Virus record (IMG/VR): IMGVR_UViG_3300043015_000080
Span: 1-26,162 of that record
From: a virus
DNA: 26,162 bases
Strand: one strand, 5' to 3'
Shown: positions 4,341 through 9,073 of the stretch, piece by piece
Position numbering within the stretch: position 1 is the stretch's first letter
How the letters are laid out: the number at the start of each line of letters is the position of its first letter
The notes under the pieces: model-generated
Database searches by the model: none
What the model was told of the DNA's origin: nothing
Seen by the model: the letters and a program-made list of their open reading frames with translations, nothing else
Position numbers and translations under genes: made by a program

Positions 4341-4365
4341 ATATACATTGTCGATTTGAAAGAAA
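4338..4365 (-). promoter_or_regulatory. Candidate late promoter for terS
   Basis: Reading leftward, TATACT (4343-4338) is a five-of-six match to a -10 box. The -35 region about 16 bases upstream is only a weak TTTTCT. The position, just after two terminators and before terS, calls for a promoter. A weak -35 fits activator-dependent late transcription, but a phage-specific promoter cannot be excluded. Confidence 0.3.
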
Positions 4366-4386
4366 AGCCCCCACCGAAGCGAGGGC
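4361..4386 (-). terminator. Rho-independent terminator, UUCG loop
   Basis: On the minus strand GCCCTCGC, loop TTCG and GTGGGGGC form an eight-base stem (4386-4367, two G-U type pairs) followed by TTTTCTTTC. It ends leftward transcription from the replication genes and lies just upstream of the terS promoter region. It is the second of two tandem terminators. Confidence 0.75.
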
Positions 4387-4444
4387 AGTGTGAGGCGTAT
4401 GGAGCAGTTGAGGGGAGAAAACTGAGCCTCGAATAGAGTATATC

Positions 4445-4486
4445 ACAAAAAAATGCCCCCGCAAACATAGGACATGAGCGAGGGCA
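4445..4486 (-). terminator. Rho-independent terminator
   Basis: On the minus strand TGCCCTCGC (4486-4478) pairs with GCGGGGGCA (4462-4454) over nine positions around a 15-base loop, followed by seven Ts. It lies about 55 bases after the stop of the 4542-5087 gene and ends the replication transcript. It shares the GCCCTCGC arm with the next terminator, suggesting duplication or a common ancestry. Confidence 0.8.
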
Positions 4487-4541
4487 GTTCAATGAGGCAG
4501 ACTACATGGGCGTAGTCACGGTCTTTTTACCAGATGCAATG

Positions 4542-5087
4542 TTATGACACAATAGCCTCTTGGAACTCCGCATCTTTCTTCACGAAGTATTCCTTTGCTT
4601 TGTCTGTGCCGTACATTTCTTTCATCTGTGCATAGAACGCTTCTCGGTACGGCTTTATGTCTTCTCTGGTCACTAAGCCTTTTTTCACAAGCTGTGCGCA
4701 AAGACGACCAGCGACATAAGGTTCACCGACATAATCACCACGCTTGATACGGGCAGCGTTTATTTCATCTGCGTCCATCTTGCGTGTTGACATGGTGTCT
4801 TTGACTTCTTGCCCCATTCCCGCAACCACGGCTTTGGTGATTTCTGGGGATGTGGGCCAGCTATTTGTTTTGTGACTGCCGCTTAATGAATGCCCAGCGC
4901 GTTCGAATGTACCGACAATGTGATCTTCGGTGGTCTTGCTGGGAAAACGCTTATTGATGCTTTCCGCAAGTCTGCTGATTGCATCGGCTTGCTTTGCTGT
5001 CGTTTCCAAATGCTTGGGAGCAGCGTAAATGCTTAGAAGATTGACCAATTGGCGGTTAATCAAGGTAATGCGTTCATTGTATTCCAT
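4542..5087 (-). CDS. Replication accessory protein in the lambda P position
   Basis: This 181-residue protein directly follows the replication initiator (four-base gap). The frame extends to 5120, but the ATG at 5087 has an AAGGAT Shine-Dalgarno and lies just after the upstream stop at 5092. The N-terminal third is helical; a KTNSWPTSPEITKAV motif (about residues 73-87) recurs in proteins next to winged-helix initiators of alphaproteobacterial phages. The C-terminal half is charged and helical. By position it would be the helicase-loader partner of the initiator, as lambda P is of O; the sequence itself shows no AAA+ Walker motifs, so it is not DnaC-like. Function is inferred from context only. 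Confidence 0.7.
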   Translation of the reverse strand: MEYNERITLINRQLVNLLSIYAAPKHLETTAKQADAISRLAESINKRFPSKTTEDHIVGTFERAGHSLSGSHKTNSWPTSPEITKAVVAGMGQEVKDTMSTRKMDADEINAARIKRGDYVGEPYVAGRLCAQLVKKGLVTREDIKPYREAFYAQMKEMYGTDKAKEYFVKKDAEFQEAIVS

Positions 5088-5091
5088 GTTC

Positions 5092-5733
5092 TTATCCTTC
5101 GTCTGCCCAGCGTTCACCATTTAGCCATGTGGCTAGGTGAGGGATGAATTGTTTGTCTTTTTCTTCGAGCGTTTCAACATACTCGATTAGCGGATGATAG
5201 ATGTCATCGAAGGTAACCTTCTTCAATGCACCCTTCAATGCCTTCTTAGCCTGACCCTTGCCAACCTTACGTGGATACCAAGACCATAGTTCTTCAAAGA
5301 AGTATTCAAGCTGTCCATCATCTTTTGATGATGTATTGTTAGTTATATTTCCAAGGTTATTACTTACAAGGTTATTCATGCGCAGATTTTGCGTATCCCC
5401 ATGCGCAGATTTTGCGCATACCATACGCAGATTTTGCGCATCGCTATTGTCCTCAGATGTTCCAGTAAGTTCTAATATGTACGCATTTGTAGTCTTACCG
5501 CCACCTTCCCTGTATTGGGGAATGCGCTTAATCAAACCCAAGGTTTCGAGCGTATCCAAGTGACCCTCGACAGAACGGCGCGACATTTCGCACAATGACG
5601 CTAGTCGGTTAATGCTTGGGAAACACTTTCCAGTTTCGCCGTTGTGGTGATCTGCAATCCAATACAGCACAATCTTTGTGGCTGGTTTCAAACCAGTTTG
5701 CTTCATAGCAAGCGCAGTCATATAGTGTGACAT
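5092..5733 (-). CDS. Winged-helix replication initiator (lambda O-like organisation)
   Basis: A 213-residue DNA-binding protein. Residues 1-75 form a winged helix-turn-helix of the Helix_turn_helix_36 type: LKPATKIVLYWIADHHN, then CFPSINRLASLCEMSRRSVE and HLDTLETLGLIKRI. A low-complexity linker (about 90-135) follows and is encoded by the iteron and AT-rich DNA described separately. The C-terminal part (EELWSWYPRKVGKGQAKKAL, then FIPHLATWLNGERW at the end) is a motif common to phage replication proteins. It probably binds the origin inside its own gene and recruits the next gene product. The ATG at 5733 follows AAGGAG at good spacing. Confidence 0.82.
   Translation of the reverse strand: MSHYMTALAMKQTGLKPATKIVLYWIADHHNGETGKCFPSINRLASLCEMSRRSVEGHLDTLETLGLIKRIPQYREGGGKTTNAYILELTGTSEDNSDAQNLRMVCAKSAHGDTQNLRMNNLVSNNLGNITNNTSSKDDGQLEYFFEELWSWYPRKVGKGQAKKALKGALKKVTFDDIYHPLIEYVETLEEKDKQFIPHLATWLNGERWADEG
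5316..5376. other. AT-rich repeat block beside the iterons (possible unwinding element)
   Basis: Inside the initiator gene, a perfect seven-base hairpin (CATCATC 5316-5322, GATGATG 5327-5333) is followed by AT-rich DNA with two direct copies of CAAGGTTATT at 5352-5361 and 5367-5376, 15 bases apart. The block touches the first iteron at 5377. AT-rich direct repeats next to initiator sites are the usual form of a DNA unwinding element; that role is inferred. Confidence 0.5.
5377..5441. repeat. Three dyad iterons, candidate replication origin
   Basis: Three near-identical 20-base units start at 5377, 5400 and 5422 (spacing 23 and 22 bases). The unit is CATGCGCAGATTTTGCGCAT; the first has GTAT at its end and the third begins CATACG. 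The central unit is a perfect inverted repeat ATGCGCA-GATTT-TGCGCAT. They lie in the linker-coding part of the initiator gene, as the four iterons of lambda ori lie within gene O, with an AT-rich block on the downstream side. Two-turn spacing puts the units on one face of the helix. Origin function is inferred. Confidence 0.68.
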
Positions 5734-8665: not shown

Positions 8666-9073
8666 GATATATAAAACGGGACCACGATCAGGGTGACAGA
8701 ACGTCTTACGAGCCTTTATGCTGTGAACGAGCCTGTCATCCACAAACACAACGCCCTGAATACCATCCAGCGCAGCCTTGACGATATTATCCAAGTCGCT
8801 GCCAGCCGTGGGTCGAAACGCGCCGAACTCCGCTTCGAGACGCTTCTTCTTTGACCACGATTTAGGAATATCCATAAACGCTATCACATCGACGTGTACG
8901 GGCCTGTCAGTCGTATCTACATTGGCCTTGGTCATAGCCGCCCATGCAGCGGCTTTGATCCTGTTCTCATAATCACGGGTTTTGGCTGGAGTGTAGGCTT
9001 TGCCAGTTTTTGTGAACCTTGGCCTACCCTTTCCCTGTGGCTGACCCGAAACCTCTATTTCGATCTGGTACAT
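8618..9073 (-). CDS. rusA: RusA-type Holliday junction resolvase
   Basis: A 151-residue enzyme that cuts four-way junctions. It shows the RusA features: IEVSGQPQGKGRPRFT at the N-terminus, RDYENRIKAAAWAAM, and the catalytic stretch SDLDNIVKAALDGI followed by VVFVDDRLV, with acidic residues D93, D95 and D113 matching the three aspartates of the E. coli enzyme. The frame continues upstream through a run of nine Ts to a GTG at 9124; the ATG at 9073 is chosen because the RusA fold begins there, although its Shine-Dalgarno is weak. It is the only minus-strand gene in the early block. It resolves recombination intermediates before packaging. Confidence 0.9.
   Translation of the reverse strand: MYQIEIEVSGQPQGKGRPRFTKTGKAYTPAKTRDYENRIKAAAWAAMTKANVDTTDRPVHVDVIAFMDIPKSWSKKKRLEAEFGAFRPTAGSDLDNIVKAALDGIQGVVFVDDRLVHSIKARKTFCHPDRGPVLYISVSWTDANQVFDLIE

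Follow-up and report, generated by a model that had tools for sequence, protein, structure and literature searches.

A probable lambda-plan replication origin inside the winged-helix initiator gene of an uncultured phage and its relatives

We analysed a 26,162-nucleotide stretch of viral DNA (IMG/VR record IMGVR_UViG_3300043015_000080, positions 1 to 26,162; hereafter the window) and found, inside its gene for a winged-helix replication initiator, a compact set of DNA elements that very probably forms the phage replication origin and follows the plan of lambda ori. Judged from sequence, we put the probability of this reading at about 0.87. Three phased dyads (iterons) and an adjoining AT-rich segment with two short direct repeats, the boxes, coincide with the part of the gene that encodes the disordered linker of the protein (residues 92-137).

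A preliminary description of this DNA had proposed three dyads at 22-23-base spacing, the central one a perfect 7-5-7 inverted repeat. Their positions and symmetry were borne out: the three window dyads are 17-19 base pairs (bp) long with start-to-start distances of 23 and 22, the central dyad (ATGCGCA-GATTT-TGCGCAT) is perfect, and both outer dyads are imperfect. The repeated unit itself is real, but the size of 20 bases given for it needs revision to 17 bp with an odd centre. On the coding strand, dyads TGCGCAAAATCTGCGTA, TGCGCAAAATCTGCGCA and TACGCAAAATCTGCGCA are followed by box AACCTTGTAA and then box AACCTTGGAA at a 15-bp pitch. The two direct repeats beside the dyads were likewise found where first reported, as CAAGGTTATT copies at 5352-5361 and 5367-5376, also at a 15-bp pitch. 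The array exceeds what chance would give. The linker scores 21 for three dyads, against a mean of 11.5 and a maximum of 19 under a synonymous-codon null (none of 1000 recodings reached 21); one of 300 within-gene codon permutations reached the linker score, mononucleotide shuffles scored 12 at most, and the remaining 40-codon windows of the gene, those not overlapping all three dyads, scored 5.5-10.5. Since the copies lie in different reading frames (2, 0 and 2, reading DAQNLRM, CAKSAHG and DTQNLRM), the dyads repeat as DNA and do not stem from a repeated peptide.

To place these elements in a family, we searched IMG/VR proteins and obtained 80 loci in a first scan and about 99 distinct genes overall. 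Two of these genes belong to Rhodobacterales (the genomes of Donghicola and Thalassobacter), and cellular contigs, 101 and 363 kb long, hold relatives in two cases; the systems are from uncultured marine phages whose hosts are probably Rhodobacterales. Measured over 118 genes, dyad length is 17 bp; the spacing is 22 and then 23 bp in 107 of them, and the centre of the last dyad lies 14 nucleotides (nt) from box 1 in 98 and 11 nt in 13. In 37 genes that share the TGCGCA half-site of the window, the ratio of observed to expected synonymous codon diversity is 0.05 over the dyads, 0.05 over the boxes and 0.14 just past them, compared with 0.76 at the N-terminus, 0.67 in the helix-turn-helix (HTH) region and 0.55 at the C-terminus. 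It had been suggested that relatives keeping the linker protein and losing the DNA repeats would speak against an origin. The reverse was found, as dyads and boxes show almost no synonymous change: linker peptides vary among relatives (QNLR, QNLP, VAKCD, KNLD), and dyad geometry and box sequence stay. What is conserved in the linker is thus the DNA rather than the protein. The 45-bp segment that begins with box 1 averages 69% AT across the family, compared with 50% just upstream and 55% in whole genes, and this segment, on the C-terminal side of the dyads, is probably the unwinding region.

A DNA scan for the box pair only, at 15-bp pitch, returned at least 120 stretches. Among the matches listed, 37 of 40 new distinct ones lie inside initiators of the roseophage family, including some with very different dyads and C-termini; the three exceptions are one in an unrelated protein (L332) and two in another HTH_36 initiator (L350). 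At about 8788-8830 of the latter, the AACCTTGG box itself forms part of a 15-bp repeat in tandem, AAAATCCAACCTTGG, which encodes the peptide NPTLEN. A cultured relative, Rhodobacter phage RcMeacham (L432:3501-4472), has an initiator with 50% identity over the first 89 residues, a low dyad score, one exact AACCTTGTAA box and tandem AAACCCGACTCCGAAAT copies; it may use a different iteron format.

The preliminary description had raised the possibility that the initiator-iteron pair is a new specificity, and the window half-site TGCGCA proved to be one among about a dozen types. The others are TGGCA, GTCGC/GTTGC, GGCGC, GTTAC, GTTCA, TGTCA, TTCGG, GGAA, GGACA, TGCAG, CTGCA, GTACA and perhaps GGGCA. 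Each is paired with its own recognition helix, of the types SRRSVE, SKRAVQ, DRSTV, DVATV, SRPAI, TRATV, SRQSI, GKTAL, TDRxV, APRSI, SERSV, SEQSV and SATSV. Dyad class and helix class correspond one to one in all 75 genes (of 78) that could be classed from DNA. Among residues 40-65, mutual information with the half-site bases, computed with no site-by-site correction for ancestry, is highest at 56, 53, 51 and 57, all within or adjoining the recognition helix. In a partial Mantel test controlling for the C- and N-terminal parts of the protein, dyad distance follows HTH distance (r 0.68, p 0.001); its partial correlation with C-terminal distance is -0.18. Class patterns composed after inspection of the data give 9 changes of DNA-defined class when mapped on the HTH tree; the C-terminal tree requires 21, and the minimum is 8.

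These pairs move as units. In 32 pairs of genes, C-terminal identity is 90% or more, HTH identity is 55% or less, and different dyads are present. An example is L108 compared with L004, where DNA identity starts at 93-100%, falls to 33-70% between about nt 90 and nt 330, and is back at about 100% from the boxes onward; L125, L316, L109 and L148 show similar profiles with their partners. Because the flanks are nearly identical and the difference is confined to a cassette of about 240 bp holding helix and dyads, origin specificity is swapped in one piece. With helix and target on a single stretch between the conserved gene start and the boxes, recombination can replace both together, and phages have exchanged protein and site repeatedly; about a dozen specificities exist.

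The coordinates of these elements and of the neighbouring features are collected in Table 1.

Table 1. Features of the initiator locus in the window
Feature	Coordinates	Strand	Remarks
Replication initiator gene (213 amino acids)	5092..5733	minus	N-terminal winged helix, disordered linker, helical C-terminal domain
Exchangeable specificity cassette	5374..5644	minus	Recognition helix, wing and three dyads; ends at box 1; approximate limits, taken over from identity profiles between pairs of relatives
Recognition helix, residues 52-64	5542..5580	minus	From AlphaFold model; part of the protein that covaries with dyad half-sites
Dyad 1	5423..5441		First in the reading direction of the gene
Dyad 2	5401..5419		Perfect 7-5-7; frame differs from dyads 1 and 3
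Dyad 3	5378..5396		Adjoins boxes
Box 1	5364..5373	minus	AACCTTGTAA on coding strand; 14 nt from centre of dyad 3
Box 2	5349..5358	minus	AACCTTGGAA on coding strand; 15-bp pitch from box 1; residues 119-128, synonymous diversity 5% of expectation
AT-rich segment, 45 bp, probable unwinding region	5329..5373		AT content taken as family mean
Perfect 7-bp hairpin	5316..5333		CATCATC-TTTT-GATGATG; beyond boxes
Downstream gene (place of lambda P)	4542..5087	minus	Possible start at 5120, overlapping initiator; candidate helicase loader
Intrinsic-terminator-like hairpin after two-gene operon	4454..4486	minus	In GC-rich stretch 4443-4493; -17.8 kcal/mol, z -3.4, then T run
Second terminator-like hairpin	4367..4386	minus	In GC-rich stretch 4355-4392; similar sequence, with T run

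The encoded protein was described at first as a winged-helix initiator, and its family matches agree. It matches PF13730 HTH_36 (E 1.7e-15, 57 bits; Pfam cut-off 25), as do all 22 members of our initiator set A1, as well as phrog_270, a replication initiation protein family, over nearly its full length (residues 1-212, E 5.5e-45), and the O-like phrog_391 (E 1.5e-17). An AlphaFold model shows the winged helix in residues 1-90, a linker (92-137) with predicted local distance difference test scores (pLDDT) below 50, and a helical C-terminal domain. Neither the window initiator nor any other member of A1 matches Phage_rep_O (PF04492/TIGR01610); lambda O matches both models. Direct homology to lambda O was considered and set aside, as profile comparison (hhalign) gave a probability of only 6%. 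Foldseek returned general winged-helix matches only, including the DnaD N-terminal domain and one initiator entry. On sequence grounds we assign the protein to HTH_36/phrog_270, outside Phage_rep_O.

The claim of a lambda-style origin is well supported as to how the locus works, with phased dyads in the linker and the AT-rich stretch on the C-terminal side; the protein lies outside Phage_rep_O. In lambda, 18-bp dyads with an A-tract centre lie in gene O beside a 39-bp AT-rich tract (PMC6022878, PMC7466680), and we measured lambda start-to-start spacings of 20, 24 and 23. The two systems share A-tract-centred dyads of 17-18 bp in the initiator linker, an AT-rich stretch toward the C-terminal domain, a gene for a replication partner (a candidate one in the roseophages) immediately downstream, and an N-terminal domain that forms a single specificity unit with its iterons. 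Furth and Yates reportedly described type specificity of O and ori in lambda, phi80 and 82 in 1978, in a paper cited in PMC6022878. Unlike lambda, which has four dyads and a different AT-rich tract, the roseophage site has three dyads at a nearly strict 22/23-bp pitch and the conserved AACCTTGKAA box pair; its initiator is HTH_36 instead of Phage_rep_O, and the downstream protein has no family match by sequence.

The plan is general, since distant members of HTH_36, the initiators of Vibrio, Salmonella, Aeromonas, Arthrobacter and Lactococcus phages, have both dyads of their own, at 21-24-bp pitch, and their own direct repeats after them. Sb42 of ST64B, Vibrio phage D65, Orf269 of Lactococcus phi31.1 and the Arthrobacter phages resemble the roseophages in having a protein of the same winged-helix family with linker dyads and direct repeats. 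They differ in the dyads themselves and in having GAACCAGTCA, GAACCGTCC or AATAAATCA in place of AACCTTGKAA. In nine gamma- and actinobacterial phage loci (L420, L421, L422, L423, L426, L429-L431 and L435) the linker ends in GAACCAGTCA, GAACCATCA or GAACCGTCC direct repeats (EPxxEP peptides). AACC is common to these repeats and the roseophage box, and the two may be elements of one kind. A further parallel is the Vibrio cholerae satellite PLE, in which RepA_N/ori functional modules have been swapped several times, with cognate specificity shown experimentally (PMC8263062). In both systems initiator-origin modules are exchanged repeatedly; the PLE origin, however, is intergenic with two types described, whereas the roseophage module is a single intragenic cassette with about a dozen types.

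These features suggest a mechanism in which the initiator winged helix would bind the three dyads, stacked about two helical turns apart and, given their symmetry, presumably with one dimer per dyad. Binding would strain the adjoining AT-rich segment with its two boxes and promote melting, and the C-terminal domain, probably together with the downstream product, would recruit DnaB, which we take to be that of the host because no phage helicase was found. A phage helicase in the part of the genome beyond the window had been raised at the outset as a possibility, and the check was run: eight relatives of 34-38 kb (six with terminal repeats) contain no DnaB_C, no IstB/DnaC-type loader and no DNA_pol_A. 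Binding, unwinding, helicase recruitment and origin activity are predictions.

The gene in the position of lambda P, which overlaps the end of the initiator in most relatives, was correctly called a protein of unknown family. Its family is conserved and marked by an R(T/S)WPT-like motif, and the model of the protein is all helical (pLDDT 93). It has no convincing sequence match to a Pfam, PHROG or PDB family, and none of 23 family members matches Phage_lambda_P (PF06992) at E up to 1. Foldseek found nothing significant in the PDB and one unnamed match among viral models. In a structure comparison, lambda P in its DnaB complex (9oa1) ranked sixth (Z 8.4, root-mean-square deviation 2.6, 77 residues aligned, 6% identity), spanning 7-93 of the model and 37-115 of P, where AAA+ lid bundles score equally and a Z below 13 is weak for helical bundles. 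The two families also share a short RI..GE segment in like order, with an hhalign probability of only 1-3%. We regard the product as possibly P-like, a weak hint that offers a lead. In L014 (3540-4382), L021 and L055 the usual family is replaced by a PAPS-reductase-like gene (PF01507, E 6e-7) directly after the initiator. In relative L342 (46-kb record G009) an initiator with CTGTTCAAAATCTAAACAG dyads is directly followed by a complete DnaB gene (E 3e-59), a form of the module that may be more self-sufficient. Genes annotated as helicase loader and DnaB come next after the initiator of a distant Gordonia phage.

Two terminator-like hairpins follow the two-gene operon and apparently form paired terminators separating it from the packaging genes. 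The perfect hairpin beyond the boxes, also reported in the preliminary description, is present but is no conserved part of the site: only a subset of relatives share it, and the family mean stem of 4.9 is near the 4.4 of shuffled sequence. Its role is doubtful. No tRNA or Rfam family was detected in the window.

Several observations weigh against the origin interpretation. The GC-skew minimum is no more than about 0.4 kb from the site in three of eight relatives (G001, G005, G006), 1.7 kb away in two and far away in three, a pattern confounded by coding-strand switches. The box-scan loci were selected by their boxes and our scripts placed boxes by pattern, so box conservation counts solely for the genes found by protein search; among these, L132, L134 and L137 have degenerate boxes and weaker dyads with the usual N-terminus. 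Dyad sets are poor in L062, L148 and L292, and relatives with other C-termini may have origins using other partners. Finally, part of the covariation of helix and dyad reflects common descent, but the C-terminal control speaks against descent as the sole cause.

Of the other explanations, an unlikely one is that the dyads are an operator for the initiator's own transcription, or an in-gene roadblock, with the origin elsewhere. Regulatory functions are frequent among winged-helix proteins with MarR-like folds, autoregulation through dyads is known for many plasmid initiators, and the dyads here lie about 300 nt within the gene. Three phased dyads plus conserved AT-rich boxes nevertheless exceed the needs of an operator, the protein is assigned to phrog_270 and is O-like, and the experimentally known lambda origin has the same plan. 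Slightly less probable still is an origin that serves a plasmid-like prophage or persistence stage and not lytic growth. The eight 34-38 kb relatives lack a tyrosine integrase, as a lytic phage equally would, and proteins of related Gordonia phages bear RepA-like names; yet the 101- and 363-kb cellular contigs suggest integration there. That the repeats are a by-product of a low-complexity linker, predicted to be disordered and holding QNLR-like repeats, can be dismissed almost entirely, as the different frames and near-absent synonymous change contradict it and the peptides vary between types at constant dyad geometry.

With a phage replication origin as the preferred reading, the novelty lies in a cassette that is intragenic and of one piece, in how many types exist, in the strictness of the geometry and in an invariant AACCTTGKAA pair. 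More tentatively, and with rather less than even confidence, we propose that roseophage initiators are a natural, self-encoding library of orthogonal initiator-origin pairs, in which a fixed chassis, made up of gene start, dyad geometry and AACCTTGKAA boxes, accepts exchanged helix-and-dyad cassettes of about a dozen specificities, the invariant boxes are recognised by a conserved component of the machinery as a sequence-specific element for unwinding or for the loader, and exchange is maintained by selection against a shared origin, for example where other phages or satellites interfere at the origin. Conservation of the boxes suggests a sequence-specific origin-opening step that is independent of iteron recognition. 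Each genome spells out a DNA-binding domain together with the site it recognises in a single gene, so that a recognition code of winged-helix initiators could be derived from the family; the natural cassette swaps are ready-made specificity experiments, and RcMeacham is a laboratory-tractable entry point. The roseophage systems could also serve as orthogonal origins.
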